From the NCBI RefSeq assembly GCF_000003815.2, contig NC_049988.1, positions 12,615,969-12,679,968 of the forward strand: a DNA stretch of 64,000 bases, given 5' to 3'. The position numbers and the translations under genes were made by a program. Below, in pieces: positions 7,335 through 62,874 of the stretch. Source of the stretch: Branchiostoma floridae (lineage: Eukaryota; Chordata; Leptocardii; Amphioxiformes; Branchiostomatidae). The notes beneath the pieces are model-generated. The model saw only the letters and a program-made list of their open reading frames with translations, searched no databases and was not told the DNA's origin. Numbering within the stretch: position 1 is the first letter of the stretch; each line of letters starts with the position of its first letter.

Positions 7335-8220
7335 CCCTGTCGTCTCACTATTGAGAATGGTAAACTCTTTAGCATCAGCAATTGCTAGACATTCATATTG
7401 AGAATGGTAAACTTATTCACATCAGCCCTACAGCATCAGCTATAGCTAGACAGTCCTATTGAGAATGGTAAACTCCTTATTCACATCACCCCTACAGCAT
7501 CAGCTATAGCTAGACAGTCCTATTGAGAATGGTAAACTCCTTATTCACATCACCCCTACAGCATCAGCTATAGCTAGACAGTCCTATTGAGAATGGTAAA
7601 CTCCTTATTCACATCACCCTTACAGCATCAGCTTGCTAGACAGTCCTATTGAGAATGGTAAACTCCTTATTCACATCAGCCCTACAGCATCAGCAATTGC
7701 TAGACATTCATATTGAGAATGGTAAACTCCTTATTCACATCACCCCTACAGCATCAGCTATAGCTAGACAGTCCTATTGAGAATGGTAAACTCCTTATTC
7801 ACATCACCCCTACAGCATCAGCTATAGCTAGACAGTCCTATTGAGAATGGTAAACTCCTTATTCACATCACCCTTACAGCATCAGCTTGCTAGACAGTCC
7901 TATTGAGAATGGTAAACTCCTTATTCACATCACCCTTACAGCATCAGCTTGCTAGACAGTCCTATTGAGAATGGTAAACTCCTTATTCACATCACCCCTA
8001 CAGCATCAGCTTGCTAGACAGTCCTATTGAGAATGGTAAACTCCTTATTCACATCAGCCCTACAGCATCAGCTATAGCTAGACAGTCCTATTGAGAATGG
8101 TAAACTCCTTATTCACATCAGCCCTACAGCATCAGCTATAGCTAGACAGTCCTATTGAGAATGGTAAACTTATTCACATCAGCCCTACAGCATCAGCTAT
8201 GGTCAGACAGCACTAGTGGA
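7335..8220. repeat. Minisatellite, 60-64-bp unit, about 13-14 copies
   Basis: Head-to-tail units of the form TATTGAGAATGGTAAACTCC, TTATTCACATCACCCCTACA, GCATCAGCTATAGCTAGACA, GTCC. Variants differ mainly in CACCCCTACA against CAGCCCTACA and in AGCTATAGCTAG against the 4-bp shorter AGCTTGCTAG. Units are contiguous with no unique spacers. The self-complementary AGCTATAGCT core recurs in most units. Confidence 0.95.
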
Positions 8221-8457
8221 GAATGATAAGTCTTTCCACCCACATAAGTCACATCGGTAAGCTGATTCTATTCTATTGCAAAGTTCTTTCCGCAGATCCA
8301 CTTTTCGTCTGCGCCACGCACGAGTTTAGCTTCTTCTGATTATAGCTGCCTGTGCGGTGTGAAAGTCTTCTTAGTGCTCTTTTATGTCAGATAACTTAAG
8401 GTTCATCCGGAACTTAATGATAAACATCTGGCGTTCGCAACCTTTAGAGGAGTGTGT

Positions 8458-37295: not shown

Positions 37296-40200
37296 AAAAC
37301 ACACAACAACAAACTCATTCTAAACCTAACAATATAACCTTTTTGCTGAAGGTAATGAAAAGTATTACGATGATATAAACATTACAGCTTCGTTTTAATT
37401 TTTGATTGTTTACAGGATCACAATCTACCTGCGTACTGACTACCACTGGGGATCTCTGAATCCTCTCGACATTTACATGGGCAACTCAGAACAGCTCACA
37501 GAGAACACCCGAGTGGCTCAAGGTCTAAACTTTACTGAACACCAGCAGAACATGACTGTTTTCAGCAACGGTATCCTAGCGCAATACGTGGGTCTCTTCA
37601 TGTCAGGAGCAGATTATAGGAAATTCTTATGCGAAGTGGAAGTTTTTACTAATGATATCGCATATCTGGGTGAGTCTGTCAATCACCATTAAGGCCACAA
37701 TATCAAATGATAATAATAATAATAATAATATTAATGATAATGATGGTGATAATAATGATAATAATAGCCTTTATTAACATTCATGCCCATGGCGTATCGA
37801 TACAAAGGTCGTAATACAGTACACATTGTAAAGTCGAGATGGTTTCTAAGACTAATCAAAAACATTGGGTTAAAAACCTACTCAAACAGATTTGTTCAGT
37901 TTCTTTTCATTTCTTAGTAATGTTAAATATGTAGCCGTAGATTGATGTGTGCTTGGATAATATTGTGTGAGAATAATACCTATACCAATGATATCAACTG
38001 CAAAGTATTCCAAAAACACTTCTCAATTATTTCCTACATATTGAGACAATCTAACCATTGAAATGGAGACGCAACAAAAGGGTCCCTAAATCGGCAAATC
38101 CGCTTGCATTGGTCGACTGAATGTAATGCGTTAAATTGGAAAACTAATACAAGGCAAAGACTATATTTGAAACTAACTCTTATGTATTATCTCAATTCAG
38201 ATTGTTGTCACGTGCTTGGACCACTGCAAAGCAGTTCACCGCCAAAAGAGCTACAATACGGGATCCAAACAGATTTTCCAGAACGCCCCTTGGGTGCTGT
38301 CGTCAACATTAGTGTCAATGTCAAAGCTGTTGGTTCACCTCCTCAGGAAGCGTTCACAGTTCTACATGTGGTAGCGAACGGGAGTTTACCAGGACTCAAC
38401 CTGGAGTACGTGGAAAAGAATTTTTTTTAATATTCATTTTCATACGTCAGATATGTATATTACACTGCTCATGTTTAAGTTTCACTGCACTTTTGATCAT
38501 CGACTCACATTATATGATTATGATTTCATAACTGGTCCTTCGGAAATCAGTTGAATAGGTTTGAGTAGATACAATGGGCCTGGGACGGTTTGTCACATAT
38601 TCACTGAACCAAAAAAGACCAACGTTCTACAAATGTGACAGGAATGACTAAATTATAAATAAACGAAGGGCGACCTTTACTTGTATTTTAATAGAAAAGC
38701 GTTTACGATAAACCCATCTACATATCGATGTAGGTGTTCGTACCGTTTAATTGACATTCCAATCAATTGAATTACTTTGCATGTTTTATCCAAATTAAAA
38801 AAAAATCAGAACATTAATGTTTACTTTTAAAATACTAGTAGCATTAACTACTCGAAACGTGCATGTAAATGTCACTGAGCTGACAATAATCTTTACTTTT
38901 TTATAAAGATGTGAGGAAAACTGTGATATTGGCAATACGTTACAAGCCAAGCCACTACAGCTGCTCACCCTTTCTGAAATCCTGGGTACAACGGAGTTCA
39001 GTTTAGTGAAACATCCCATCGGCTTCCTGCTGCAAAATTGGGATTTGGCTAAAATTGTTTCGGACACGAGAGTGCGGATTCCCGAAGGTATATTCCAGGT
39101 ACGTACTGCGATTTTTGCCTCCAGCGTATTATATATTAATTCTCTGTCATGTGCTTGTATTGGATCGCATTTTTTTTCGATATCTATATCTTTCGAGATA
39201 CTTGCACCCTGTCATATAAAACAAATTCATGTGATCTTTATAACGTTAGTATGATAATACCAGAAAAAATGACAGAACAAATACTCTTAGTAACACTAAA
39301 ACTTTACTAGAGAACAAGACGCGGTCAATCATTAGTCCAACCACGGACACCTACACCTTAATTGATACTATAAGATTTACGAACTTTTACTTTTTTTCTT
39401 TGAAGAGATTCATCAAATATGTACACATCTAATAGAATTTCATCAATCAGTGACTACTTTTAAAAGGTAAACACACGTACCTCCAAATTTTTCATGGCTA
39501 TAGGTCCATCTTTCTCACGGAGTGACCTTGTTCTCGCGAGAGTTGCGAGAACTAGGTCGAGACTTCTTTTATTGATTCACAACATCCGGTGTTATCTCCC
39601 TCCAGGTGGACGGATTTTACACTATCCGTTTAACCGATGAATCCGATGACCAGACAAGGATCTCGGAGTGGCGATTCCGTGTCTACGCCAATCCCTCTGC
39701 CCCGTCAGCACAAGACGGTGACTTTTCAGAGGTGTGTTCCCTTCTCCCGGCGGACGGTATAGCTTTGGTCGACAAATTCTGCGTCCAATGTCAAGGTACA
39801 TGTTTTCATAGGTTTTGAAAAACAATGTTCATGTTATAAGCATCAAATGCCAGGTTGCATAACATACATAGAATATTTATTTTGATTCACCACAGAATAC
39901 AACTTTCTGTAAGCCAGAAACATTTGGTATGCAGTAAGATTAAACAAAACATTATTTCATTTATTTTCAAGATCTTTGTTTTTTTTACTTCCGTAGAAAA
40001 GAATGCCTAGACAGGAGAAGTTTTCTGAAGTTTAAACCATTTGAAAATTGATATGTGAATTATATAACCACATGCCTTATTAACCTTTCTTTAGTTTTTT
40101 ATTTTATTTTTCGTTTTGATAACTGATGTTAACATTTTGAAAGCCACCACCCCCCACCCCCCCCCCCAAAAAAAAAGTTTTAACCTTATTCTTTGTCTCG

Positions 40201-46200: not shown

Positions 46201-49200
46201 CGCTGGAACAACAGCAGAGGTAATGACATACAATGCAATTGAAGGGAATGCTATCAACCTTCCAAACCCCTGTTCATAGATAAAAATTTTGTGATACCAA
46301 ATAGACCATCTCAATTGCTTTTAAAAGGTATTGGTAACATTAAAGTAAAGACATGACCTACCAATGTTAACTTTCAAATTAACTTTCAAATTGTTAAATT
46401 TTCGGATAATAGTCGATTAATCTTGACCCTAAATGGAATAGTGGTATGATATTAGATATTCATCAAATTAAGATGCCTGTAAATTATTACTTAGAATTGC
46501 TTTGAAAAAAATCATGTTAGTTCGTAAACTATTGTTTTATCAAGAAAATAAACAACAAAATGCTAATCCAGGCATACTAAACTGTCCTTGATTTCAGGTG
46601 AAGATAGCGCTCAATAGCCTATACGAAGAAGCCGATACTTTTATTCTTCGTGACCGAACACGGTTTCTGTTTGAGAAGGGCAGCGTGGATTCCTTTCTTG
46701 TGTCTACAGATCAGCCACTGGGAGGTCTCAGTCACGTGCGTGTGTGGCACGACAGTAGTGGTGACAGTCCCGGATGGTGAGTCACTTGTTATCCATCGAT
46801 AGCAGAAGCATGCATTACCTTTATGAAATATTCATGGTCGTTACATTTTCACAGGCGTTTGTGTGTGTCTGTCTGCACTGTGAACAAGATCAACTAAAAT
46901 GGCTTGATGGATTTGTTTCACACTTGTTGTGTTGATGTGCTGTGACGAAAGCTAGAAATGATTAGATTTTGGTCCCCCTAGCGCCGACTTTTCTTGGTAC
47001 TGCAGCGGAACTGACGGGCGGCCCGTGAGATAACGTGTTCAAAAAATGTTCGTCCAGCTTCCATATGGTTGTATCAGAGAGTGCTAAAATGCCGTATGTT
47101 CTTTATGCTGAAGAGGTATAGCAGCACAGCTACAAATGATAGTTTTATTCTGCTTCTATATTAGGTTCCTGAGGCAGATAGTCGTGACGAACAGAGGGTC
47201 TGGTGAGACCAGCTTTTTTCTGTGCAACAGGTAAGCCTCTGGTTGGAAGTCATTATCGTGAACTACAAGTGTATGTTTTCATTAGGGGAAGAGGTTTGTG
47301 CATAAGTAACTTGTACATTATCAATTTAACCTGTATGTCTACTCTTACACTCAAGTTCCAAACCTGTATATCAAGTTTAGCTTATGTTCTACTCCAGAAG
47401 AGTTGTCTTTAGACTTGATCTTGTTGTATCACTTGAAGTATATACGCTAACCATTTGAGCCGATTATGTGTATTCTATGAGAAGTTTAAATGAATGTATG
47501 TGTCGGCTGAGCTGAGCTTGGTTTACCATTTTACCATTAATTGCATTCTCTGAAATCTCAATAAATAGAATTAATTGAATAACCAATATTTATTTTAATC
47601 AATATCTAATAAAGATGGCTGGCGGCAGATGAAGACGACGGTAAAGTTCATCGGGTCCTTCCTAAAGCCGAACCAGACGAGATAAGTTCTTTCCGAAACC
47701 TGTTCCTAGCCAAAAGCGCAAGGTAAGTTAATGAAGGCATGGTAGAAATGATTTATCTGCGTAGTTGACCCTTAAAGTTAACCATTATAAAACAGTACAC
47801 AACATGTTAGTTTTTAATCATACTTGATGGTGTACAAAATTGTATTATGCTACATATAGTATTATCTTATCAAAATGTTTTTTTTTACAATTTTTCCTTT
47901 CAAGTTTATATATATATCGACCCATTAACTTTTTTATTACACAGGGATATGAACGATGACCATGTGTGGTTCTCAGTCCTGGGCCGCCCTGCTCGTAGCC
48001 CGTTCACCCGTGTCCAGCGCCTGTCCTGCTGCCTGACGCTGCTCTACAGCACCATGCTCACCAACATCATGTTCTTCGGTCGAGATGACGACTTTGACCC
48101 GCCGGCCCCGATCCGATTCGCGGGACTGGTTATCAATTCACCTATTTCCTGGGCAGAGGTAGAAAAATCTTATAATAGATGCGTTGGTTGTAAAATTAAG
48201 AAACGATATTGATATTTTATTTACGTTTATGGATGTTATTATTAGACACCCAGGTAAACAATATCAAAGGTAAACCTATGTCTACAACTAAATAAAAGTC
48301 ATGAGATTTTTTTCCGGACTAGTCGAGTGATGACACCCATCACTCTTTGCAGAGGAAAGAAAAGTCTGAAAGTAAATCCCATATCTTTATCAACTTGTAA
48401 TTGTGGACATTGTATTGCCAATAGATCTTCCACCAATATTTAGTTTCCATTTCACGTTACTGTATATAATTTGCAAGAAAATAAACTTCCGCATCTATCC
48501 CCAACAAGGACCATTTCTGATAAAGTTGACCGATTACTATGCAGTAATATTGCATGATACAATCTTTTTTACAGGTAATGATCAGCATCCAGAGCGCAGT
48601 TATCATCTTGCCTGTCAATCTGCTCATCGTTTTCTTATTTCGACACTCCTACTCGACAACCAAGCCCGACAATAGAGATAAAAAGGCAAATACAACAGGC
48701 AATCGGAGTGAAAATCAAGACAACACCATAACCATTACAACCTCCAGCGACGATCCGGATGTACCGACAGTATGGTCGTATGGGGTGAAAGCCCAGAGGT
48801 TCCCTAAGTTTTCCAGCGGTCCGTCAGTAGATTCTGACAGAACATCGACAGGAAGGGACGAGTCCGGTTTTCCAACAGCAAAGACGAACGAACTGGAAAA
48901 CAATACCAAGTTTTCTCTTCCATGGTGGACAATCTATATTGGTGCGTGGGTGTTTAAATTTGTTTCTTTATCATTTAAAAATGGCGCAGCGTCATTTCTT
49001 TGCATTTTAAGAAAATGAATTAGTCTTAGTATTCAAATTATATATCCACATCGTTGTTTTGAAACGTGCGATACGACTTATTTTCTGTTGATATCCGTTA
49101 ACAATACGAGTTAGAAAGTGGTATATGTTGTCAATCATTGACTCGTGTAAAGCATATTACTTTTGTTAATAGGGTTTTTATCAAGCAGTGACTACTTTTT

Positions 49201-52200
49201 AAAGGTAAAAACATGTACCTCCAAATTTTTGATGGCTATCAGTCCATCTCCCTCACAGAGTGACCTAGTTCTCGCGAGACTTGCGAGAAATAGGTCGAGA
49301 CTTGTGTGGATCTTCCTTGCAGAGTCGGGGTAAGTTGGATGTGGGCAGCTCCCAGCCATCGTTGCGGTTCAGCTTAGCATGCTAGCAGCTTTCAACTCTT
49401 AACTTAACTGTGTACGATCTCTTCAACGGTGTTACTTTAGCTGATTTATTACGTCCATACAGCATGGTTTCTGCTCTGGACAGCAGGTTTCGCGGCTGCG
49501 TACTTTACCGTCCTGTACACGCTGAGTTTCGGACGTGCGAAGGCAGAAGCTTGGGTCGTGACGTTTCTGACGACGTTTGTCACTGACGTATTCCTGATGC
49601 AACCTTTCAAACTGCTAGCCATCGCAATGGTCTTTGCTATAATTGCAAAGGTATCTCAATTTTTTTATTTACGCGTACTTTCTAAGGAATCCACGATACT
49701 AACCTCAAGTCACGTGATAAAACATATCTTTGAGTGATTTTATAGTTTGAGCAACACACACAACTGACTTATTTTCGAAATATTTAATTTTTCGTTATAC
49801 TTTCGCATATCGCCTGAAAGACTATAGCAACCATTTTTTACATTTGCTAAAATGTTAGTTGGTAATAATTTCTTTAAAAACAAGAGATCAATCTTCCATT
49901 TATGACAAAATATCATGAATTTTTGCTACAATATGGCAATTTTCCTACATAAAGAAATATTTGCAGTCAGCGTATCTTTTTATGAACTAATATGCATGAA
50001 TTAGGCTAATCTGATGACGTCATAATGTCACATGTCTTATAATTTTATATTTGACTTCGAAAGCATTCTCTAAAAATATTCGTGCTTGTACGATAAGTTG
50101 TTTCATAATTACAGTGGCGGTGTGGCGCGCCATCTTGAGTACATAGCGGACTCCATTCAATAAGTCGTAGCACAGTCACGATACGTCAAATCGAGCTATT
50201 ATATGTGTTCCCGTGATCTAGAAGAGTCAGGGAACCGTGTGTATGTCAGTTGAAATTTCAAAAAGTAGTTGAAGACGAGATTAGTTCCGTCAAAGTTGAC
50301 CTTCTATGTACTCATCATGGCGAGGGTAGCTTGTGTTTTACGGTCTGCATGGGGGTTTCCAGGTGACCGATGTATACCGTCTACTTCCGGGTCAAACCAA
50401 CTACCCAAAACAAAACACGCAATACTCTACCAGTGATAACCGATTGAGTGCCCTCAGTTTGGAGAATCGTATGTATCTCAGTCAATAGACTTTAGACAGA
50501 AACTGACCAGATCTAGGAGGTTTTATCAGTTATCTTATTAAACTTCATTGGCTCATCCCAAGCGCGAGACATTGCACTACAAGTGACCGAAGGAAAGTTT
50601 TATCTATAAAGATTATCTGTCATATTGCCAGGCGTGACATATAACTTAACTGTATTTGAACCAGAATTCTTAATAAGACACATTAACATTTACCTCTTAC
50701 TAAGCTATTCCGACAGTGTATCATTCAAATGATACAGGGTAATACACAATGTATTCAGCGATCTACGGGCTGTATCATTCAAAGTGATATACTCCTGGTT
50801 AAGATACAAGAATCCCAGCAGTGGTGCAATATCAAAAGACGATATCTATTCCGACAGTGTTTTCATTAAAGTGAAACAGGTACCCCGACCGGTGCCACAT
50901 TCAAAGGACAAACTCCCTGGTCATGATCCACGGAAAGGCTAAGTTACTCCGACAGTGTATCATTCAAATAATAACGGGTACTATACAGTGATCTATGGAG
51001 TGCATCATTCAAATGATACGAGGTTAAGATACAAGAATCCCGACTGGTGCAACATTCAAACTCCCCGGGAAAGACAAAGCTATTCCGACAGTGTATCATT
51101 CAAATTAATAAAGGGTAATACACAGCGATCTAAAGGGTGTATCATTCAGATGATACAGGATAAGATACAAGAATCCCGACTGGTGCAACATTTAAAGGAC
51201 AAAAGGAAAGACTAAGCTATTCCGACAGTGTATCATTCAAATGAAACATATAATATATAGCGATCTAAAGGGTGTATCATTCAAATGATACGAGGTTAAG
51301 ATACAAGAATCCCGACTGGTGCAACATTCAAAGGAGAAGGGAAAGACTAAGTTATTCCGACAGTGTATCATTCAAATGAAACAGGTAATATATAGCGATC
51401 TAAAGGGTGTATCATTCAAATGATACAGGTTAAGATACAAGAAACCCGACTGGTGCAACATTTAAAGGACAAACTAATTGGGAAAGACTAAGTTATTCCG
51501 ACAGTGTATCATTTAAATTAATAAAGGGTAATATGCAGCGATCTAAAGGGCGTACCATTCAAATTATTAAGGTTAAGTAAGATAGAAGAATCCCAACTGG
51601 TAAAATATTTAAAGGACAGACTCCCCGGGAAAGACTAAGCTATTCCGACAGTGTATCATTCAAATGATACAGGGTAATATACAGCAATCTAAAGGGTGTA
51701 TCATTCAAATGATACAGGGTTATAATATACAGCTATCTAAAGGGTGTATCATCTAATGATACAAGTTAAGATACAAGAATCCCGACTTGTGCAACGTTCA
51801 AAGGACAAGGGAAAGACTAAGCTATTCCGACAGTGTATCATTCAAATGATACAGGGTAATATACAACGATCTAAAGGGTGTATCATTCAAATGATACAAG
51901 TTAAGATACAAGAATCCCGACTTGTGCAACATTCAAAGGACAAGAGAAAGACTAAACTATTCCGACAGTGTATCATTCAAATGATACAGGGTAATATACA
52001 ACGATCTAAAGGGTGTATCATTCAAATGATACAAGTTAAGATACAAGAATCCCGACTTGTGCAACATTCAAAGGACAAGAGAAAGACTAAGCTATTCCGA
52101 CACGGTGTATCATTCAACTGAAACAGGCAATCATACAGCGATCTGAGGGTTGTATCATTCAAATCATACAGGTTAAGATACAAGAATCCCTGGTACAACA

Positions 52201-55200
52201 TGTAAAGGACAAATTCCCTGGGAAAGACTAAGCTTTTCCGACAATGTATCATTCAAATGATACAGGGTAATATATACAGCGATCTAGAGGGTGCATCATT
52301 CAAATGATACAGGTTATTAAGATACAAGAATCCCAACTGGTGCAACATTCAAAGGGCAGAGGGAAAGACTAAGACTAAGTTGTGTCGTACACAATCCCTT
52401 CTGCATCAATCTCTCTGCAACTTTTGTAATCTAAAAGTAATGACTATATATATGATATAAACAAAGTTGTCTCTTCGTCAACCAAACAATTAACAATAGT
52501 TCTTGTGTACCAAAGCAATTCCATGGCCGTTTCCATTACAATTCAGACCACCATCTCTACAGTACTAGACAGTGGAACAACCTAAAACTGATCCAAGTAA
52601 AAACGCAGCAAAGAAAGTTCTCCATGATGTTCAGATGCCCGCAAAGTTACAAAGTTAATATACAAGAATCCTGAAGGTGTAACATTCATTCATATAAATT
52701 GGCACAGTTGTCCTCACGCCGATTAAGGGAGGTTAATACGGATAAAGCAGCGCCTTTCTACAACTGTGTCATAAAAATTGACACAGAATCCTCCCATCGA
52801 AACTTTCTGTCATTAAAGGGGGTAATACGGATAGAAGAGCGCCTTTCTACAACTGTATCATATAAATAAACACAGTTGTCCTTCTGTCGAAACTTTCTGT
52901 TATCAAAGGAGGTAATATGGACAGAAGAGCGCCTTTCTACAACTGACTGTTTAGTTGAATTCTGATTTCGACAAACATTGGTGTGGTGTTATCAATGTTG
53001 TAGTATGAGTCGCTATTCCATTATTAAACGCGTCTTGATATTTTGAATTGTTGTCAGTGTGCTATTTTGTTAATTACTATTCGTGAAATACACGACCGCC
53101 AGATTAGAATGCTTCTTATCAACACGATCGTAAGATGGAAATTTACCTTTTGTAGATCTTTACACGGTAGGGGGGGTCGATAAATGGCAAAGTCAAAATT
53201 TTTGGACACCCACTTGGGAAATGGTTAACACCATCAATACAAGACTTTGGATACAAAAAGTAAAGTCGTATCTCAAAATAAACCCCCCACCTCACCCGAA
53301 AAACTAATTTGCATTATATGCAATAGGGAACAGTCATATGGTGATTTAGAGGAATGCTTGCCGTCATGTAACTGCTTAACGACGTGTGCGAGGACCTCCA
53401 AACTTGTTGAATTCTCCTAAAATTTACTTGGCAACAAGTTTAAGAGAATAAAATAAGTTTGTGATATTTTTGTTGCCATGGCAACGGGTTGATGACAGGC
53501 ATAGTTTACAAAATTCTTTAATTTCGGCTTAAACATTGCGGTTTTATGGTTTTCTTGGTAAACACTCTTGTTTCATATATATAGCATCAACATCTTATAA
53601 AATATCATTTAGCATTCACGATTAAATATTAATAATTTATGCTAATTTGATGACGTAAAAAATCCAAGATGGCAGCCCATGTCATAAGCGAAATCGTAAA
53701 ATAGGTTATTATCACTCGAATTTTGCCATTATATTGTAGTTTTTACTATATACATTCCTAGGGATATTTGTAGTCCGATCTTATTGCATTTTGTGGTTAT
53801 ATGTCAAAAATAATGCAATTTAAAACATTTAAGTTTGACGATCCAAGATGAGGTTTCTCAAAGAATAGCTAACTTGAAGATAGATTTCAAATTTGACACT
53901 AGTAGTGCCTGTACTATGCCCATTTGTGAAATATGGCACATTACATGTGGTCATTTTTTTTTTAAATCTAGAAGTCTTTGCCATTGCCTACACCTTTTCC
54001 TGGTAGTATACAATAGATCTAGTTGCCATGTAAAATGTTATGTTTCCAATACATGTGTATAATTTACTTTTTCTGCTTTCAAAACAGCCTCAAACGACAC
54101 TTTTGCACCCAAATTTCACATTGAGCCAAAATCTGAATATAACTTTTCCTGGAAAGGTGTACATGTTAGTTGCATCAAAAGTTTTTTTTTTTTTACTTTG
54201 AACAATTAAATCCGCAGTAAAATTGCTAGTAAGATAGTTAATTATGTAAATATATTATATAAATTACATCCCTGTCGTTACTGTACTGCCTTTTATGCTA
54301 CTCTCACTGTCATTTGTGTGCCCTAACTCTTGTTGTGTACTAGTAACAGTGGATGAAAGGTCTTACTTGGAAAATGTTTGTACATTTCCAATTTGAAAGG
54401 AAAGTAATAGAGCCCAGCTTGCCCTTTGTTGGAATTTGTCATGTATAGTCCAGGGTCTCTACTTTGTCTTATATCCTAGTCACCCCCACCTTCTGTTCGT
54501 TTCTCCAGGGTTTGCCTTTACTCTGGGTCCTCTGCGTATATACGAGTTCACTTTTCTTTTTAAAACAACTCATTGTATTCTGTCTTTGGGTTTTCCTTCT
54601 CTGTCTGTCCATGCCTCTTTCTGCTTTCAGTAAACCATTTCCTCAGGAACGTCTTCTACCCTCTATTGATTGTGCTCAGAGATTTAGATACTGTATCATG
54701 GTAATACTTGGCATAAAAGGTACATCTGCTGTGACGCCTCTCGTACATCCATGTCAGTGGTCACTTTCCCAAGGCCCACTACCTCAGCCTCAAATGGTAC
54801 TAGATCATTGATATCACAACCTATATATATACTGTCTGCAGTTTTGTAGGTAGTTGGAAGTATTTAGATGGAGGAAATACCTTACCGACATCAAACAATT
54901 TAGAGTTAGATCTTTTTGTCATTAGTTGTGATTCAGATTTACTTCTATGTTGTAACTGAAAGTAATTATTACGTACACTCTTTGATTTCTCTACCACTGT
55001 CACTCTCCCTATTCATTTAAAATGTATGTTATCAATCTGCTGCAATGGTAATGTAGCTAATGCCCTAGTGCCCCGTTGTTATTTTTCAGGGAGAAAAAAA
55101 TTAACTTTGCTAATAAGCCCCCTTTCCACTAGACGGCGATTGCGCTGAGCTCTCACTGCGTCCTAACGGATTTGTTTCCATCGATTTCATACTGGGTATA

Positions 55201-58200
55201 TCATACAGAATGTAAAAGTGTTACTGAAAAGACAACAAAACACACATTTTGCACCCTCCCCTCACTAAATCCGAACGGCTTGGTCTACGATCACCAAATT
55301 TGCAGGGATTATGTATTTATAAGTCTTAATCACTTCTTTAATTCTGGTGTCTTGACAACACCGTCTGTCTCTACTTCTATGAAGTAATATGGGGTAATTA
55401 TGACGCCATTAAGATGGTGTTATAGGCGATAACCATCTAAACCGGTACTTCCCATTATATTATGGTATCCTAAAGGTATCAAACAAAAAGTTAGCAAATA
55501 TGGGTGTCTAACTTATACGTCTGCTAAGGTAGGTAAGACTTTTGTTGTCAATGGCATCCGAATTGATATTAATGCCTTGTCAGAAAATGAAGTCAAATCT
55601 ATTTTAGCTATCCTCTGAGAACCCTCATCTTGGATCGTCAAACTTAAATGTTTTAAAATACATTATTTTCGACATGTAACCCAAAAATACAATAAGAACG
55701 GACTACAAATTACCATTGGAATGTATTTGGTAAAAACTACAAAGTAGTGGCAAAATTCGAGTGATAATAACCTATTTCACCATTTTCGCTTATGACATGG
55801 GCTGCCATCTTGGATTTTGACCAGTTACGTCATCAAATTAGCATAAATTATGAATATTTAATCATGAATGCTACATTATGTTATATAAGATGTTAATGCT
55901 ATAGGAAACAAAAGTGTTTACCAAGAAAATTATTAAACCGCAACGTTCAAGCGGAAAGTAGAGAATTTCGTAAAATATGCCTGTCATCAACCGGTTGCCA
56001 TGGCAAAAAAAAATATCATAAATTTAATTTATTCTTAAACTTGTTGCCAAGTAAATTTTAGCAAAAGTTAACAAGTTTGGTAGTCCTAGCACACGTCGTT
56101 CGGCAGTTATATGACGGCAAGCATTCCTCTAAATCACCATATGGCTGTAACATATTGCACATAATTCGGCATGAGGCTCCCNNNNNNNNNNNNNNNNNNN
56201 NNNNNNNNNNNNNNNNNNNNNNNNNNNNNNNNNNNNNNNNNNNNNNNNNNNNNNNNNNNNNNNNNNNNNNNNNNNNNNNNNNNNNNNNNNNNNNNNNNNN
56301 NNNNNNNNNNNNNNNNNNNNNNNNNNNNNNNNNNNNNNNNNNNNNNNNNNNNNNNNNNNNNNNNNNNNNNNNNNNNNNNNNNNNNNNNNNNNNNNNNNNN
56401 NNNNNNNNNNNNNNNNNNNNNNNNNNNNNNNNNNNNNNGCAATAACAAAAAAGTTTCGACGGGAGGATTCTGTGTCAATTTTTATGACACAGTTGTAGAA
56501 AGGCGCTGTTTTATCCGCATTAACCTCCCTTAATAACGTAAGTCTTCGGCGAGAGGACAACTGTGTCAATTTATATGAATGAATGTTACACCTTCAGGAT
56601 TCTTGTATATTAACGTTGTAACCTTGCGGGCATCTGAACATCATGGAGAACTTCCTTTGTTGCGTTTTTACTTGGATCAGTTTTAGGTTGTTCCACTGTC
56701 TAGTACTGTAGTGATGGTGGTCTGAATTGTAATGGAAACGGCCATGGAATTGCTTTGGTACACAAGAACTATTGTTAATTGTTTGGTGGACGAAAAGACA
56801 ACTTTGTAGTTTGTTTACATCATATATAGTCATTACTTTTAGATTACAAAACAAAGATGCAGAAGGGACTGTGTACGACACAACTTAGTCTTAGTCTTTC
56901 CCTCTGCCCTTTGAATGTTGCACGAGTTGGGATTCTTGTATCTTAATAACCTGTATCATTTGAATGATGCACCCTCTAGATCGCTGTATATTCTCCTGCG
57001 TCATTTGAATGATACACCCTTTGTATCGTTGTATATTACCCCGTATCATTGAATGATACACTGTCAAGATAGATTAGTCTTTCCCTCTGTTCTTTAAATG
57101 CTACACCATTAGGATTCTTGTATCTTGACCTTTATCATTTGAATGATACACCCTCTAGATATCTCAGGATATCTTAGTCTTTCCCTCTGTCCTTTGAATG
57201 TTGTACCTTTAGGATGCTTGTATCTTAACCCTGTATCTTAATAACCTGTATCATTTGAAAAATACATTTGAAAGATACAGCCCCTAGATTGCTGTATATT
57301 ACCCTGTATCTTTTGAATGATACACTTTCGGAATAGCTTTATCTTTCCCTTTGTCCTTTAAATGTTGCACCAGTTGGGATTCTTGTATCTTAACCTGAAT
57401 CATTTGAATGATACACCCCCCAGATCGCTGTATATTACCCTTTATTATTTGACTGATACACTGTCGGAATAGCTTAGTCTTTCCCGGGACAGTGTCCTTT
57501 GAATGTTGCATCAGTTGGGATTCTTGTATCTTAACCTGTATCATTTGAATGATACACATTATATATCGCTGCATATTACCCTGTATCATTTGAATGATAC
57601 ACTCAGTCGAGTAGCTTAGTCTTTCCCAGGGAGTTTGAATGTAATGCATTAGTTGGGATTCTTGTATCTTAACCTGTATCATTTGAATGATATACCCTTT
57701 AGATCTATGTATGTTACCCTTTATCATTTGAATGATACACTTTCGTAATAGCTTAGTCTTTCCCGGGGAGTTCTTTGCATGTTGCACCAGTCGGGATTCT
57801 AGTATCTTATCCTGTATCATTTGAATGATACATCCTTTAGATCGCTGCATATTATTACCTTTTATCATTTGAATGATACACGAATAGCTTAGCTTAGCCC
57901 TTTGTCCTTTGAATGTTCCACCAGCACTAGTTGGGATTCTTGTATCTTAACCTGTATCATTTGAATGATGCACCCCTAGATCGCTGTATATTACCCTGTG
58001 TCGTTTGAATGATACACTGTCAGAATAGGTTAGTCTTTCCCAGGGAGTTTGTCCTTTGCATGTTGCACCAGGGATTCTTGTATCTTAATTAACCTGTATC
58101 CTTCGAATGATGCACATCGCTGTATATAACACTGTATCATTTCAATGATACACTGTCGGGATAGCTTAGTCTTTCCCGGGGAGTTCTTTGCATGTTGCAC

Positions 58201-61200
58201 CAGTTGGGATTCTTGTATCTTATGCTATATCATTTGAATGATACACCTTAGATCGCTGTATACATTGTGTTGTGTATTACCCTGTATCATTTGAATGATA
58301 CACTGAGTCGGAATAGGTAAGCAAGTAAATGCCAGGCTTTTCCAGAATTCTGGTTCAAATACAGTTAAGTTACATGGCACGCCTGGCAGATAATCTTTAG
58401 AGGTAAAACTGTCCTTCGGTCACTGTGTAGTGCAAAGTCTCGGCTTGGGATGAGCCAATCATTATATATAAATTGACCCAGTTGTCCTCCCGCCGATTAG
58501 TCTAAACTGTTCGGTCATACCATGACATCCTGTAGCTTCTAGTTGTAAAAGAGGTTGTCTCTTTCACCGCCTCAGTCTGTAGGTTCATATGCATGCATAT
58601 GGTTTCATGCGCTTCTGCCGACAGTGTGAGCCGGAAACAGATGCGTCTTTCTTTGTGACCGGGTACCGCAAAACCCCCATGTGGTGCGTATTTCAGCCAA
58701 AAACATGGCGGCTAGAAACATGGCGGCTTCCGAAAATTCTGAGTGAGGGCAAACTGAAGCGGTAACCCATCAATCTAGCAAAAGTCAAATTTATTTTGTG
58801 AGGTACACACGGTTGTCTGACTCTTCTAGATCACGGGGACACATATAATAGCTCGATTTGACGTATCGTGACTGTGCTACGCCTTATTGAATGGAGTCTT
58901 CTATGTACTCAAAATGGCGCGCTACAGCGGGCCTCAAGGCCGTATTAGCAATTGTGATATAAGTTCTAATTTTGGCTGCTTTGCCTGGAAAACAATACAG
59001 AGGCCAGTTCAAGACGAGGATCCACCCTCCTCTTCGTTAGACAAAGACGAGGAATATTTGCAGGTATTTTTTGCTCATAATTTCATGCAACCTTTTCTGA
59101 TTCGTATCATTGCGAATTTTTAAGGTTTCTTGGCTTTCTAGTTGATTTTGTTTTATTGTAGTTTTATTTACTAAAGCATCTTATTATAATTACCCAATAC
59201 GAATGAAAATAGCTAGTTGTGTCATTTTTTGACTGTTTCTTTACTGAAGGCAGTCTCAAATGGTCCCAACCATTCGGCGACGGCCACAGGATTCATGCGA
59301 TATTTCCAGAAGGATATGCAAAGAGACCTCAATCCCGAAGACAGAAAGGTACCATGCCAAAACCTTTTTATAATGAGCGGTGCCAACAATTGTGGAAGGA
59401 TTGAATCACAATATCTTTCGTCAGTAGGCAGCCGGAACAGAAGAAAAGCACATCAACTAATGTACCTATATGATATATCCTTGGATAATTCATAATAAGA
59501 AAGAGGTAGTTTTTAACAATATGATAACACATTTATTAGGTCTATCCAGAATTTGAAGGTCTGGCCATGAGTACCTTGAATTGCTCTTTCCAATTTACGA
59601 TACAAAGAAATATTTTGCTTTTTTAGTAAGAATATTTGTGTGTGTCAATAACGACATTACAGAAGCCAGCTGATGACCATGGCTCCCCGTCGATTGAGAC
59701 CACCCTCACTGAACAAAGAGAGAAGAGAAAACGGCGAAGAGTTGTTCTCGAGGTTCTTGTATTCGCGGTGTTCTTCACTGTTCTCATGATGACTTCGTAC
59801 ATTGAAAGGAGTCCCATGGCTTACCATTTGACTCAACATGTACAGAATGTTATACTTGGTGGTGGAGACCTCAGTTTTACACAGGTACAGCGTATGTTCT
59901 TTAGGAAGATATCTGATGCTTTGATGTATGTAAAAATTGGGGATTGTAGTATCTTTACTCACAGTTACATTAGCAACAACCGTGCTTAAAACTTTTAAAT
60001 AGTTACTTCATTAGCAAAATAGTACAATCATCAATTTGAAACATGTTGCACTTTGTTTTACCTACAATATTTTTCGAATTATTCAGTAAAGTTTTCTGAA
60101 TTTATAGATCTATAGAATAAACTGACATTGTTTTTCAGGTCAAGGACATCTCGTCATTTTGGACTTGGCTGACTCTAAATTTTATCCCTGCGACGTACAC
60201 AGCTGCATTCTGCAACGACAGAGGCAAACAAAAAGATAATTTATGTCTCTCATACTTTCTCGGACAGGTAAAACTACGACAGGTCAGGTTGAAAAAGGGT
60301 AAGTGCCGCTAAAAACAAAGTAGTGAATAGATACATCAAATAATCTGATTGACGTTTAAAACATAAACGTTTCAAAAATCATTTATTGTTTCAAATCAAG
60401 TCTATCGTATATAGAGATAGAAAGACACACAGAGAGAGAGAGAGAGAGAGAAAGACCTGAAGAAAGTGACTGAAAATTCGAAGTGAGCTACATTGTTTTG
60501 TATTGAACAAACGTAGCAATTTTCATAACGGAATATGGCAACACGGATTAGGCTCCATGCATAAACTCCATTATAAATTCATAATAATATTGTATGACAG
60601 TAAGGATGCAACAGCATGTCATATTTTCAATTCCGTTATCTTTAAATTTCAGATTTCCATTGCAAGATACCATTGACTATAATATCAGTAGGCTCTCGAT
60701 GTACATTGGCGTACTCGGATGGTCTGTCTGAAAAGCGGAATTTCAACCAAGGCTGGATTTTTAACGACTCTACCAAGAATGATGAATGCAACAATGCCTT
60801 TGTACCTTCCAATGCAACGCTATCCCCCCAGTACACTGACTGTGGTGCAGAACTGTTCCACGTGCAGGACATGTGGAAGTATACTGCGGCTAAGTCTTTT
60901 GCAACCGGTAAGTACCTCTTTAGATATTGCTAGTTTTTGTTTGTAAATAAAACCATATAAAAGTGCCAATGCTTACATTTCTACCGATCAAGAAATAGAT
61001 TTGTGCATACACCGAGTAAATTTCGCAGATGATCAGACGTATTCTGTAAAACCTCAATTTTACATCCGAAGACTATAAAGTTTGCTACTTGAATGTAAGT
61101 TTATCTGTGACGGTAGTCAACATTATGTTACAATATTAAGACCTTATATCCGTGCACAATATAAAGGGCTTTCCAACAAGCATTCGATCAGTCCTCTAAT

Positions 61201-62874
61201 CCTTATCAAGTTGAATTGACCCAAAGCCTAAGTGACACATCCGGAACGGAAGTGTGACGTCAGCTAAGGGTCAAAGGTGTTTGGCAGTCATTATTCGGGT
61301 GCCCATGTCAGGAAGTGTGAAACTTTATTTTGTGTACGGATATAAGGTCTTAAATTGTAACATAATATAAGATCTGCCATTTATTACTTAAAAAGCGATT
61401 CAACATCCGCCAGCAAAAAAAAAAACATTACAAAATGTTTAAAACATTGTATGTCACTTATCTATTTAAACGCCTAGGGTTCCCGTATGTTGGGCAACAT
61501 GGCACCTACCGTGGCGGTGGTTACATCGCCTCTCTGGGAACAACAAATCAGTCTAGTTTAAACATGGCCGCCTACTTACAACAACACAACTGGTTGGACA
61601 ATAAGACTCGTGCAGTTTTTGTAGAATTCACACTGTACAACCCACATGTGAACTTGTTTTCTATCACATCAATGGTAGTGGAGTTAAACAATCTAGGAGC
61701 AGCAAGTACTGAAGTCGTCACCGTGCGTCTGATACAACACGATGCCGTCTTACTGCTTTTTCTGAGGAGCTGTTTGGTGCTTTTTCTTCTGTATTTCGCT
61801 TTTGAAGAAGGTGAGAAAGTCTGTTGTCTAATGTTACAGAACCACAAATCGTATTTTATGTGTGGCCAGGTTTAACGCTGTGAAGGTCTTATGCTAAGTA
61901 GTTTCAAAGGTGATGTGCCCCTCTTCTAGCAGAGCGTGTATGTTTTGCCACACAAATGTACACGTAAACGCTGGTTTATTCGAGTTTGCATAACGTTGAC
62001 ATCGAACATCCGCTAGACCAATGGCTAGCATATGTCTATATAATATATATGTATTTCATTCTCTACCTCAGCCAAGAAACTTTTCTTCCGACCTCTGGAA
62101 TACGTACATGGGATCTGGAATTGGCTTGAACTGGTCACCGTTGCTGTCGGTCTCTGCACTCTGTGCTTGTACTTCTACACACAAAGCATCATTGACGACG
62201 TGTCGGAACACAGAGCAGCCGGTAACGATGATTTTAACATGTACAAAGATGCCGTCAACTGGTTCCAGATCTACAGCGTTCTTCTGGGTCTGTTCATATG
62301 TTGCGCCACTTTAAAGTTCCTCCGCATATTGCGCTTCAACTCCCACGTGTACGCCTTGTCTACAACGATGAAGAAATCTTTCAAACACGTCGCAAAGTTC
62401 ATGGTTACAGTTGGAATAATAGTCAAAGCTTTCACCGTGATGGCAACTTTGGTCTTTGGTAGCAAGTTGCAAGGTTTTAGAAACATGGCTTCAAGCTTGC
62501 AAAGCCTTCTTGTTATGATGTTGGGTAGCTTCAACTTCGAGGATCTTGTTGATGGAAATAGAGTATTAGGTCCATTGATGTTTTTCGGGTATCAGGTCAT
62601 AATGCAGTTCTTCCTACTAAGCATGTTCATGGCCATCATTATGGATGTGTATGCACAGGACAGACATGCTGTTAATCCAAACCATACAGGATTTGTTGAC
62701 TTTATTAAACAAAGTATATCAAGTGCAGGAAGAAAATTAAGGGGCGCCATATCCAATATCTGGACGAAGAAGCCGCAGGTTACAAAAGACACGCCGCCAG
62801 ATTTACTTGAGTCAGTTGGGCATGTATTGGAAAGGCTTGACAAACATAATGCTAGATATGATAGCACCCTTTAG
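27800..62874 (+). CDS. Polycystin-1-like receptor/channel with CTLD and two fucolectin domains (41 exons, 2,565 aa)
   Basis: Exons: 27800-27827, 28251-28409, 31673-32074, 32534-32717, 33411-33492, 34117-34273, 34691-34817, 35225-35312, 35625-35783, 36277-36505, 36833-37031, 37416-37669, 38201-38405, 38909-39098, 39606-39795, 40311-40453, 40855-40962, 41337-41513, 41671-41796, 41998-42112, 42314-42399, 42689-42808, 43512-43661, 44143-44355, 44820-45108, 45401-45528, 45728-45952, 46112-46219, 46598-46776, 47165-47230, 47615-47722, 47945-48158, 48575-48941, 49463-49650, 59001-59063, 59250-59348, 59663-59884, 60139-60298, 60653-60907, 61478-61810, 62072-62874. All introns are GT-AG, phases match, and the total is 7,698 nt (2,566 codons with stop). 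Order: signal peptide, VWC-like, CTLD (63-197), FTP1 (197-338), REJ-like, FTP2 (539-690), REJ, GPS (about 1425-1460), TM1, PLAT (1512-1665), TM2-11 with the channel core. Polycystin-1 family proteins are surface receptors that pair with polycystin-2 type channels. The closest known design is the PKD1L2 class (CTLD plus galactose-binding lectin); here fucolectin domains take that place. Confidence 0.88.
30013..30120. repeat. (GT)n microsatellite in intron 2
   Basis: About 45 GT dinucleotides with one interruption, then GTAT repeats. It makes a His/Thr frame on the minus strand, which is an artefact. Confidence 0.95.
30823..31588. mobile_element. Non-autonomous TIR transposon in intron 2, about 765 bp
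   Basis: The left end GTACCACGATGGTCAAATTT plus GGCCCCAAATTT matches the right end read in reverse complement, GTACACGATGGTAAAATTTG plus GCCCCCAAATTT. No transposase frame. A second, broken copy surrounds the LINE at 18480-20300. It ends about 85 bp before the CTLD exon. Confidence 0.7.
31673..32074 (+). CDS. Polycystin-like exon 3: C-type lectin domain
   Basis: A complete single-exon CTLD of about 133 residues: CPIAGYVRYRGICYKSFSEL, ARQTCAADGGVLAMPKTSA, RWLGLVKDNGQWKFEDG, WYPGEPQPNIDG, GCAGF, CYWDKPFICQ. The four core cysteines and the WIGL-equivalent WLGL are present. The calcium site is altered: the usual EPN appears as EPQPN and no WND is found, so calcium-dependent sugar binding is uncertain. 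Phase 1-1 exon. Confidence 0.9.
32534..34273 (+). CDS. Polycystin-like exons 4-6: fucolectin-type (FTP) domain 1
   Basis: Exons 32534-32717, 33411-33492 and 34117-34273 encode NIALGKTAHQTSTWFGGGEA, SLAIDENLSTLFDLGSCTHT, WWVDLGHSYAINR, VVIFFRQDGCCWQRMNPFNI, HIGDCEQ, VSMNPQCGG, FISVPCHGMRGRFVGVRLPG, LSLCEVQVF. This matches the F5/8-like fold of the eel-fucolectin / tachylectin-4 / pentraxin-1 family. The SCTH loop and the R-Q-D-G-C-C-W-Q-R element resemble the fucose-binding motif, so fucose binding is plausible. Confidence 0.85.
32731..32950. mobile_element. MITE in intron 4
   Basis: The left end AATAAGCCTTCTCACACTAG, then CACTACGCATGCGCGG and GGGTAATATGTCA, is mirrored at the right end (TGACATATTACCC, CTGCGCATGCGTGG, then TAACTAGTGGGAGAGGGTTA). 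About 220 bp with long TIRs. It starts only about 14 bp after the exon 4 donor site. Confidence 0.75.
33493..34116 (+). other. Intron 5, flanked by a duplicated splice-site sequence
   Basis: Exon 5 ends ...GAGCAG and the intron begins GTCAGCATGAA; the intron ends ...TTCCAG and exon 6 begins GTCAGTATGAA. The 14-bp string CAGGTCAG(C/T)ATGAA is therefore present at both ends. This is what a tandem duplication or target-site duplication that created an intron would leave. Confidence 0.6.
34390..34590. repeat. Dispersed repeat, copy B (copy A at 15425-15615)
   Basis: In intron 6. Shares CACGTTATGCAGATAGAACA, CGTGAC and GAAAATTTGGGTGAGTCTAA, then CCAACACAGGTGA in the order found in copy A. Confidence 0.65.
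34691..36505 (+). CDS. Polycystin-like exons 7-10: linker and first REJ-like region
   Basis: Exons 34691-34817, 35225-35312, 35625-35783, 36277-36505. Includes VPEPCQVAHSGCTVDV, LVVHRTGNVTIHGLLSIEAC, LDIDWTIWRDYVSKC, TLLLGANSIEAGLYMVQFRV and RIDAGLSYDPEGVLDPQTFD followed by YDWAC. The last part is the typical REJ 'S-DPD ... W-C' signature. The exon 7 acceptor (GGTGCCAG at 34690) is the only one keeping a Cys-rich frame; an upstream TTTTAG at 34638 leads to an early stop. Confidence 0.75.
35978..36210. mobile_element. MITE family M1, copy 1 (intron 9)
   Basis: TIRs: left ACAATTTTAAACTCTATATC, right GATATAGGGTTTAAAATTGT. The interior has CTTATGAAGTTGAAATGACA and AGGGTCAAAGGCG. About 230 bp. 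The same interior and ends occur at 61122-61366. Confidence 0.75.
36833..37669 (+). CDS. Polycystin-like exons 11-12: fucolectin-type (FTP) domain 2
   Basis: Exons 36833-37031 and 37416-37669: INIARCMATATASSSVGGTP, DMVIDGNNEG, WWMVDLNHPKPIDR, ITIYLRTDYHWGSLNPLDIY, MGNSEQL, GLFMSGADYRKFLCEVEVF. Clear FTP fold, with the first intron in the same phase-2 position as in FTP1 (after the D-x-x ... R strand). The SCTH loop and the CC/R sugar-contact element of FTP1 are missing, so it is probably not a fucose binder. Confidence 0.8.
37221..37292. repeat. (AC)n microsatellite in intron 11
   Basis: Interrupted ACAC run about 70 bp long. Confidence 0.95.
37708..37770. repeat. (AAT)n/(GAT)n simple repeat in intron 12
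   Basis: Tract of ATAATAATA and GATAATGATGG. Confidence 0.9.
38201..45108 (+). CDS. Polycystin-like exons 13-25: REJ / pre-GPS ectodomain
   Basis: Thirteen exons encode residues about 690-1394. Exon 13 ends at GTACGT (38406) so that the junction reads LNLECEENCDIGN. REJ-like features include WRFRVYANPSAPSA, FTLVQVTDTGNLADVRFPGN, LTGSVIASYVTRYL, VSGLNEPIDILTRRKN and VFQFYAKRAHAALSFRLTF, with many N-glycosylation sequons (NGTF, NATH, NKT, NLT, NCSS, NMT, NNT, NWT, NIT). REJ and GAIN-like regions in polycystin-1 precede the autoproteolysis site. Similarity is by pattern and position; individual subdomain borders are uncertain. Confidence 0.8.
39440..39565. repeat. Dispersed repeat M2, copy 1 (intron 14)
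   Basis: CAGTGACTACTTTTAAAAGG, CGTACCTCCAAATTTTTCAT and TTCTCGCGAGAGTTGCGAGA are shared with 49180-49305. It contains a TTCTCGCGAGA palindrome. Confidence 0.75.
45401..45952 (+). CDS. Polycystin-like exons 26-27: GPS autoproteolysis motif and TM1
   Basis: Exon 26 ends with LWKTDGCR and exon 27 continues NITHIHCRCNHLTKFAAFV. The C...C-C--HLT pattern is the GPS motif; the HL/T scissile site (residues about 1452-1454) is intact, so self-cleavage is expected. TM1 follows as NPIGLIVVLTVFVLYLPGVV, then basic SRKTDRKD. This is the hallmark junction of polycystin-1 family and adhesion GPCR proteins. Confidence 0.92.
46112..47722 (+). CDS. Polycystin-like exons 28-31: PLAT/LH2 domain
   Basis: Exons 46112-46219, 46598-46776, 47165-47230, 47615-47722. 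Reads CQYIITVYTGFGTNAGTTAE, VKIALNSLYEEADTFILRD, FEKGSVDSFLVSTDQPLGGL, VRVWHDSSGDSPGW, FLRQIVVTNRGSGE, RWLAADEDDGKVHRVLP. This is the cytosolic first-loop PLAT beta-sandwich, which binds lipids or proteins in known polycystins. Confidence 0.92.
46845..47095. repeat. Probable dispersed repeat in intron 29
   Basis: Contains GTCTGTCTGCACTGTGAACA and TTGATGGATTTGTTTCACAC, then GATTTTGGTCCCCCTAGCGC and CGGAACTGACGGGCGGCCC. A tract at about 30235-30300 (GATTAGATTCGGGGCTCCCG, GCGGCGGAAT) is reminiscent. The assignment is by pattern only. Confidence 0.4.
47945..49650 (+). CDS. Polycystin-like exons 32-34: TM2-TM5
   Basis: Exon 32: HVWFSVLGRPARSPFTRVQR, LSCCLTLLYSTMLTNIMFFG (TM2). Exon 33: ISIQSAVIILPVNLLIVFLF (TM3) followed by a polar Ser/Thr/Asp-rich cytosolic loop of about 95 residues. 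Exon 34: WFLLWTAGFAAAYFTVLYTL (TM4) and FLTTFVTDVFLMQPFKLLAI (TM5). The DVFLMQPFK element is typical of polycystin-1. Confidence 0.92.
49180..49305. repeat. Dispersed repeat M2, copy 2 (intron 33)
   Basis: CAGTGACTACTTTTTAAAGG, TGTACCTCCAAATTTTTGAT and TTCTCGCGAGACTTGCGAGA match copy 1 in the same orientation. Confidence 0.75.
50690..52380. repeat. Left-arm tandem block with TGTATCATT-CA-AATGATACA palindromes
   Basis: Roughly a dozen units of about 130-142 bp. A typical unit has ATTCCGACAGTGTATCATTC, AAATGATACAGGGTAATATA, CAGCGATCTAAAGGGTGTAT, a second palindrome, AAGATACAAGAATCCCGACT and GGTGCAACATTCAAAGGACA. Each unit therefore holds two 9-bp-arm palindromes. Open frames across it (51744-52121) repeat the same peptide and are artefacts. 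Confidence 0.9.
52720..52960. repeat. Short triplicated motif in the left arm
   Basis: Three diverged units of about 80 bp share GCGCCTTTCTACAACTG, (A/T)ACACAG(A/T)..TCC and GAAACTTTCTGT. The inverted counterpart is at about 56445-56545 after the N gap. Confidence 0.75.
53871..55599. other. Loop of the foldback element, unassigned
   Basis: About 1.7 kb not matched between the arms. The longest frame (54464-54811, + strand, 115 codons) is hydrophobic and shows no recognised domain. No transposase motif was found on either strand. Confidence 0.5.
56182..56438. other. Assembly gap (257 N) in the right foldback arm
   Basis: Run of N at the position corresponding to left-arm bases about 52945-53330. 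Open frames through it are artefacts. Confidence 1.
56885..58320. repeat. Right-arm tandem block (inverse of the left block)
   Basis: Units read TTAGTCTTTCCC, GTCCTTTGAATGTTGCACCA, TTGGGATTCTTGTATCTTAA, CCTGTATCATTTGAATGATA: the reverse complement of the left-arm unit. Unit number and order differ from the left block, so the two arrays have diverged by gain or loss of units. Confidence 0.9.
59001..59884 (+). CDS. Polycystin-like exons 35-37: cytosolic loop and TM6
   Basis: After a 9.35-kb intron, exon 35 (59001-59063) encodes RPVQDEDPPSSSLDKDEEYL, exon 36 (59250-59348) AVSNGPNHSATATGFMRYFQ, and exon 37 (59663-59884) REKRKRRRVVLEVLVFAVFF with TVLMMTSYIERSP (TM6). The exons are placed by phase and by the conserved basic run before TM6. 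The two small exons are less certain than the rest. Confidence 0.75.
60139..62874 (+). CDS. Polycystin-like exons 38-41: TOP/extracellular loop and channel core (TM7-TM11)
   Basis: Exon 38 ends FLGQVKLRQVRLKKG (using donor GTAAGT at 60299). Exons 39-40 form the large extracellular loop (YRGGGYIASLGTTNQSSLNM, HNWLDNKTRAVFVEFTLYNP) and TM7. Exon 41 gives TM8 (WLELVTVAVGLCTLCLYFYT), TM9 (IYSVLLGLFICCATLKFLRI), TM10, a pore-like MLGSFNFEDL and NRVLGPLMFFGYQ, and TM11 (FFLLSMFMAIIMDVYAQD). The C-terminus is short (about 65 residues) with a weak coiled-coil segment LLESVGHVLERLDKHNARYD. Stop TAG at 62872-62874. Confidence 0.93.
60430..60451. repeat. (AG)n microsatellite in intron 38
   Basis: Eleven AG units. 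Confidence 0.9.
61122..61366. mobile_element. MITE family M1, copy 2 (intron 39)
   Basis: TIRs: left ACAATATTAAGACCTTATAT, right ATATAAGGTCTTAAATTGT. The interior has CTTATCAAGTTGAATTGACC and AGGGTCAAAGGTG, homologous to copy 1 in the same orientation. Confidence 0.75.

Follow-up and report, generated by a model that had tools for sequence, protein, structure and literature searches.

An intron of a putative channel gene of the lancelet Branchiostoma floridae holds a large inverted repeat, and the question it raises is whether these 8.8 kb are one mobile element, more than one, an assembly artefact or a structure that acts on the host transcript. We analysed the 64,000-nucleotide stretch that contains it (the window, C10:12615969-12679968), for which a preliminary description, made from the letters alone, had proposed a single foldback element at 50115-58930. 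The best explanation overall, to which we give a probability of roughly 0.93, is that a non-autonomous foldback DNA transposon inserted into an intron of a PKD1-like gene, that a second element later inserted into the foldback, and that the insertion is tolerated through pairing of the arms. The exact ends, duplication, empty site and family described below replace a vague intronic foldback with a defined insertion.

Ends, target duplication and empty site

Self-comparison of the window returned a large inverted repeat at 50118-58929 whose arms align end to end, which confirmed that inverted copies lie where the preliminary description had placed them. Copies were searched for in the window's own genome (513,431,437 bases in 431 contigs). 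The first to emerge lay on C19 and C16, and a query with the outer end gave further copies. The homology stops at identical points in the window, C19 and C16 copies, namely TGTGGCGCGCCATCTTGAG (50121) on one side and the inverted form of it (58926) on the other, and these three copies are flanked by duplications of GCGG, CGGC and CGTC, respectively. The outer element thus begins with TGTGGCGCGCC on the left and finishes with GGCGCGCTACA on the right, and the extent first proposed proves right to within a few bases once the exact ends and the 4-bp duplications are set in place:

50121..58926, no strand assigned: outer foldback DNA transposon, 8806 bp long with the nested element and the 257 N counted in (end points common to other genome copies; paralog empty site)
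50117..50120, plus strand: left target site duplication GCGG (copy comparison; single GCGG in the paralog empty site)
58927..58930, plus strand: right target site duplication GCGG (copy comparison; single GCGG in the paralog empty site)

Two other placements of the ends were rejected. A hAT-type end at CAGTGGCG (50115) proved to be flank, present in the empty site and missing from the other copies, and a 7-bp ATAAGTT duplication farther out, spotted by eye, disagrees with the ends of the other copies.

The left flank and its exon also match a paralogous gene that lies 0.78 Mb away on C10, at 11.888 Mb. The intron of this paralog (C10:11887150-11888500) agrees with the joined window flanks in 986 of 1147 columns, runs continuously through TTACAGTGGCGGGCC, has a single GCGG and contains no match to the element. 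The paralog intron is thus a natural empty site, and it shows both the insertion and its 4-bp duplication.

A second element inside the foldback

It is close to certain that the 8.8 kb consist of two elements, the outer foldback and a separate inverted-repeat element inside it, because the foldback on C19 lacks the inner pair and the inner pair is found alone elsewhere with its own ends. In the C19 copy the homology to 53167 passes almost directly to 56440. The first 713 bases of the inner element (53168-53880) are matched at nine or more other places, at 96-100% identity over nearly the full query, in a search in which 40 of 1552 candidates were scored. Three copies elsewhere were read to their ends; all start with TAGGGGGGGTC, two are flanked by 7-bp duplications (CCTTTTG, CTTATTG) and the third by none. 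The copy on C7 is ~3.16 kb long. The inner arms are identical in 493 of 554 aligned columns, and Pfam gave no match for two frames in the spacer between them (window 53814-54059 and 54449-54808).

53168..56438, no strand assigned: nested inverted-repeat element, ~3.2 kb, exact start at 53168 (TAGGGGGGGTC); it ends inside the N gap, at 56438 at the latest
53313..53872, plus strand: left arm of the nested element, the part with a visible partner
55604..56165, minus strand: as much of the nested element's right arm as is visible
56182..56438, no strand assigned: assembly gap of 257 N, which conceals where the nested element ends on the right, along with some of the outer right arm

Outer arms and their tandem arrays

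The arms of 3.3-3.8 kb first proposed are indeed inverted, and their lengths turn out to join the two nested elements, the outer arms themselves being 3.05 kb and at least 2.49 kb. Aligned with each other, the outer arms are identical in 2020 of 2242 columns (90%), plus 1050 gap columns that mostly come from an unequal number of tandem units; the alignment scores 2757, whereas ten block shuffles of one arm reached no more than 41. The arms are largely made of tandem repeats of ~135 bp, and each carries 12 ATCATTYRAATGAT palindromes. The tandem unit has 137 matches in the genome, every one of them within the 14 loci of the foldback family, and therefore the arrays belong to the element. A piece of ~260 bp in both arms is a dispersed repeat in its own right, with copies of 85-88% identity outside the foldback.

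50121..53167, plus strand: left arm of the outer foldback (3047 bp), with a terminal part (50121-50245), a flanking part to ~50700, tandem repeats and an inner part
56440..58926, minus strand: right arm of the outer foldback (at least 2487 bp), 97% identical to the C19 right arm over 2505 columns
50932..52373, plus strand: left-arm array of ~135-bp tandem units (5.7 and 4.9 copies in two overlapping rows of Tandem Repeats Finder)
57265..58262, minus strand: right-arm array of ~136-bp tandem units, 7.2 copies (Tandem Repeats Finder)
52381..52645, plus strand: dispersed-repeat piece in the left arm (copies of 85-88% identity outside the foldback at L016-L020, the five loci that were read)
56624..56882, minus strand: the same dispersed-repeat piece in the right arm (copies outside the foldback, L016-L020)

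A small family of foldbacks

Of the 14 loci of the family in the genome, 12 were read to both ends and two (L015, L040) had only one end located. Exact 4-bp duplications flank nine of the 12 complete copies (GCGG, CGGC, CGTC, CGCG, CCTC, TCCC, CCAT, AGGT, AGAG). The termini read TGTGG or TGTAG, and TGTAA at one end of L011. The terminal 420 bp divide the copies into two groups. One, whose members are 97-99% alike, consists of the window, C19 and C2 copies together with C16:286500 at its 5' end; the remaining copies make up the other. The copies lack long open frames: no stop-to-stop frame in the 12 copies exceeds 215 aa, the one of that length lying within the tandem repeat, and Pfam recognised no transposase in ten frames taken from the copies. 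The end pattern TGTRGCGCGCCATNTT occurs at 27 places (2 in the control), 25 of them at family loci and two single. The shorter pattern TGTRGCGCGCC occurs at 117 places, compared with 208 in the control, and the 100 of these 117 matches that were listed contain no new long end pair. Among the matches listed we noticed facing TGTGGCGCGCC ends 445 bp apart at C6:19244744-19245188, possibly a short relative or chance, and an overlapping palindrome of the pattern on C11. Sequences weakly related to the outer arm lie on C2, C6 and C12 (L041-L043), but they have other ends.

Several copies of the second subfamily have a conserved 131-aa frame in the middle of the element (L035 4709-5101, L039 3533-3141, L040 3669-4061). 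In L035 and L039 it resembles zf-RVT below threshold (E 0.031 and 0.06), and by this resemblance it may perhaps be a captured fragment of a long interspersed nuclear element (LINE).

L036 1082-4434 (C16:345081-348433) and L039 1093-7452 (C288:10992-17351) occupy one insertion point with different family members in opposite orientation. The flanks are alike (99.3% over 418 bp on the left and 97% over 100 bp on the right), and in the terminal 420 bp L036 is nearest to L034 (99.0%) and L039 to L035 (98.3%), whereas L036 and L039 agree in only 96.6%. This suggests replacement, whether through ectopic conversion or by another insertion at that site; family members may be able to replace one another at a fixed place in either orientation.

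Relation to known transposons

We consider it close to certain that the outer element belongs to a small family of foldback (long terminal inverted repeat) DNA transposons and is non-autonomous, and we classify it as a foldback without assigning a superfamily. Long inverted arms form most of the element, its ends are fixed, tandem repeats lie within both arms as in the FB/TU/Tetris type, and several insertions with target duplications, together with the empty site, attest to its mobility. Foldbacks with tandem repeats in the arms also include FB of Drosophila and TU of the sea urchin. With Tetris, FB and TU the family shares very long inverted repeats, tandem units in the arms (~135 bp here), a non-coding and variable middle, few copies, and a search that found no autonomous partner. 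Tetris of Drosophila virilis is described in PMC4079207 with 8-10 bp duplications, 220-bp tandem units, and flanking, tandem-repeat and inner domains in addition to a non-coding middle; the same account assigns most foldbacks to Mutator and names Galileo, placed in P, as one of the exceptions. The lancelet family differs from Tetris in its 4-bp duplications, in its ends (TGTRGCGCGCC..) and in having its middle occupied by another transposon, and the 8-10 bp duplications of Mutator foldbacks are replaced by 4 bp in nine of the 12 copies. Galileo, which makes 7-bp duplications, resembles the outer element in its long arms with internal repeats but not in the duplication; the nested element, like Galileo, shows 7-bp duplications (two of the three copies read).

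Ginger1 and Ginger2 have both been reported from B. floridae, with non-autonomous Ginger copies in lancelet, and are characterised in PMC2836005 by TGTNR ends and 4-bp duplications, by targets that are GC-rich (CCGG or CCGT/ACGG) in Ginger1 and RTATAY in Ginger2, and by inverted repeats that measure 40-270 bp in Ginger1 and, in Ginger2 of the lancelet type, ~50-180 bp. Set beside that description, the foldback family has ends that fit TGTNR and, in nine of 12 copies, a 4-bp duplication, and is unlike Ginger in its kilobase inverted repeats and its targets: none of the nine exact duplications reads CCGG or CCGT/ACGG, none fits RTATAY, and none is AT-rich. The frames of the 12 family copies and their Pfam matches include no Gypsy-integrase-like and no Sola transposase (transposase genes elsewhere in the genome were not searched for). 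Sola elements, given in PMC10741241 with 4-bp duplications, variable ends and inverted repeats of 11 to 1124 bp, share the 4-bp duplication, a likeness by description in which the ends were not compared. Among foldbacks the combination of a 4-bp duplication and TGT..ACA ends is unusual, and it hints at a transposase of the Ginger-like (or Sola-like) kind. That an integrase-type (Ginger-like) transposase mobilised the family, as the TGTNR ends and 4-bp duplications might indicate, is a tentative proposal that we hold to be possible but doubtful; if true, the foldback architecture with tandem arrays in the arms arose outside the Mutator and P lineages. Among the papers listed, a literature search returned nothing on foldback transposable elements in amphioxus.

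Host intron and predicted RNA fold

The exons on both sides of the insertion are in frame, and the preliminary placement of the repeat in an intron of a channel gene is borne out by PKD_channel and Polycystin-2 matches downstream. Other exons in the window match C-type lectin, the GPS motif (E 1e-4) and PKD_channel in Pfam, and from this combination we take the host to be a PKD1-like channel gene; the exon preceding the insertion had no match in the PDB.

49651..59000, plus strand: host intron, 9350 bp (540 bp minus the element and one duplication), phase 0, donor AAG/GTATCT, acceptor ATACAG/AGGCCAG (open frames, flanks, paralog conservation)
62044..62871, plus strand: downstream host exon with the polycystin cation channel domain (Pfam PKD_channel E 5.1e-40; PDB Polycystin-2 chains)

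The insertion lengthened the intron ~17-fold (540 to 9350 bp) and gave it a self-complementary stretch of several kilobases. The right duplication is separated by 70 bp from the exon at 59001, just as the distance of about 70 bp to the acceptor had been given, and the right end of the foldback lies 70-74 bp from that acceptor. The paralog intron has the same donor GT and the same acceptor, ATACAG/AGGCCAG, and by this comparison the unchanged splice dinucleotides and acceptor context give no apparent sign of splicing altered by the insertion.

The minimum-energy fold of the 9350-nt intron has -4457 kcal/mol and 3496 pairs, of which 1963 join one outer arm to the other and 667 join the two halves of the nested region, whereas three shuffles in blocks of two bases gave -2144, -2143 and -2201 kcal/mol with 34, 15 and 356 cross-arm pairs. 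Four pieces of the arms were also evaluated as duplexes, and the energy of each was far below those of ten shuffles. At 90% identity and with this excess of cross-arm pairs, the arms are sufficiently alike to pair, as had been supposed. The intron is thus predicted to fold into a very long hairpin; one minimum-energy structure computed over 9 kb can do no more than suggest it. In this structure the bases at the start of the intron pair with 58942-58960, so the stem would draw the donor and acceptor regions together.

On the proposed explanation, the foldback, a member of a small family, would have entered the intron by cut-and-paste after a 4-bp staggered cut at GCGG, with a transposase supplied in trans recognising its TGTRGCGCGCCATNTTGAGTACAT ends, and the second, unrelated inverted-repeat element would subsequently have landed in its middle. 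The arms may pair in the pre-mRNA and loop out the 8.8 kb, which would keep the donor and acceptor as near each other as in the original intron of ~540 bp. Because the splice sites match those of the uninterrupted paralog, the insertion is most likely tolerated rather than regulatory. A comparison with the uninterrupted paralogous intron, or with element-free alleles, would be a clean natural test of how the stem bears on splicing and editing. A foldback in an intron is an ordinary kind of event; its insertion signature is unusual.

Alternative explanations

Several observations weigh against the insertion of a single foldback family followed by tolerance. An exact 4-bp duplication is missing in three of the 12 copies: the flanks of L039 agree in three of four letters (CCAT/ACAT), L013 has no duplication, and L014 has none at the junction and instead carries the 8-bp GCCTCCAG in both flanks, 3 bp off the left end. 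No autonomous copy was found by the end-pattern searches, transposase genes themselves not having been searched for. The repeat frame of L012 (3193-3699) scores 25.6 bits for Med15_N (cut-off 24.1), with no stretch passing alone, which we take to be a composition effect. The empty site lies in a paralog and not in an allele, and a precise loss in the paralog is possible, if less likely; tolerance, finally, is something that we infer. The architecture of flanking, tandem-repeat and inner domains with a non-coding middle, shared with Tetris as described in PMC4079207, could also speak for a foldback of Mutator or P type, such as FB of Drosophila, Tetris or Galileo. We think this quite improbable, given that duplications are exactly 4 bp in nine of 12 copies, against 8-10 bp in the same account of Tetris, and that a longer repeat near the junction occurs only in L014; the 4-bp duplication separates the family from Mutator and P foldbacks.

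The arms might instead form a double-stranded RNA with a function in the intron, either regulating how the adjacent exon is spliced or attracting A-to-I editing, in line with the strong predicted cross-arm pairing, the right end 70-74 bp from the acceptor, and the enrichment of editing sites in stable long-range pairings reported for human introns (PMC8052449). We judge this improbable: the foldback is present at 13 other loci and has nothing specific to this site, the splice sites equal those of the element-free paralog, and some editing would be expected in any transcribed foldback and is not by itself a function. That the insertion is a foldback with a later nested element also fits better than a single composite foldback with arms of 3.3-3.8 kb, as in the preliminary description. 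The two inverted pairs are roughly concentric in the window, but the outer element on C19 lacks the inner pair, which starts abruptly at 53168, occurs alone elsewhere and has 7-bp duplications in two of three copies read, and a composite is extremely improbable. Equally hard to credit is a misassembly in which the inverted arm duplicates one arm, a refutation that the preliminary description had foreseen and to which the 257-base N gap in the right arm lends some colour. It is unlikely because the C19 copy carries both arms without any N; moreover, the window arms are ~90% alike compared with 98.3% and 98.1% to their C19 counterparts in the terminal 420 bp, and the duplication and empty site fit a real insertion.

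Other repeats in the window

Rfam gave no match at gathering score in 49500-59600. Beside the insertion, ~100 bp of the intron (49922-50023) match ~10 other places at 74-94%, an older dispersed repeat. A 128-bp direct repeat of 89% identity lies at 39438-39565 and 49176-49303, and a 243-aa frame on the minus strand (18764-19495) resembles the end of a reverse transcriptase below the cut-off (RVT_1, E 0.033). Tandem repeats occupy 7371-8229 (64-bp unit, 13.6 copies, 94% matches) and 17347-18201 (327-bp unit, 2.6 copies), the latter with a unit that by eye resembles sushi-type coding sequence on the minus strand.

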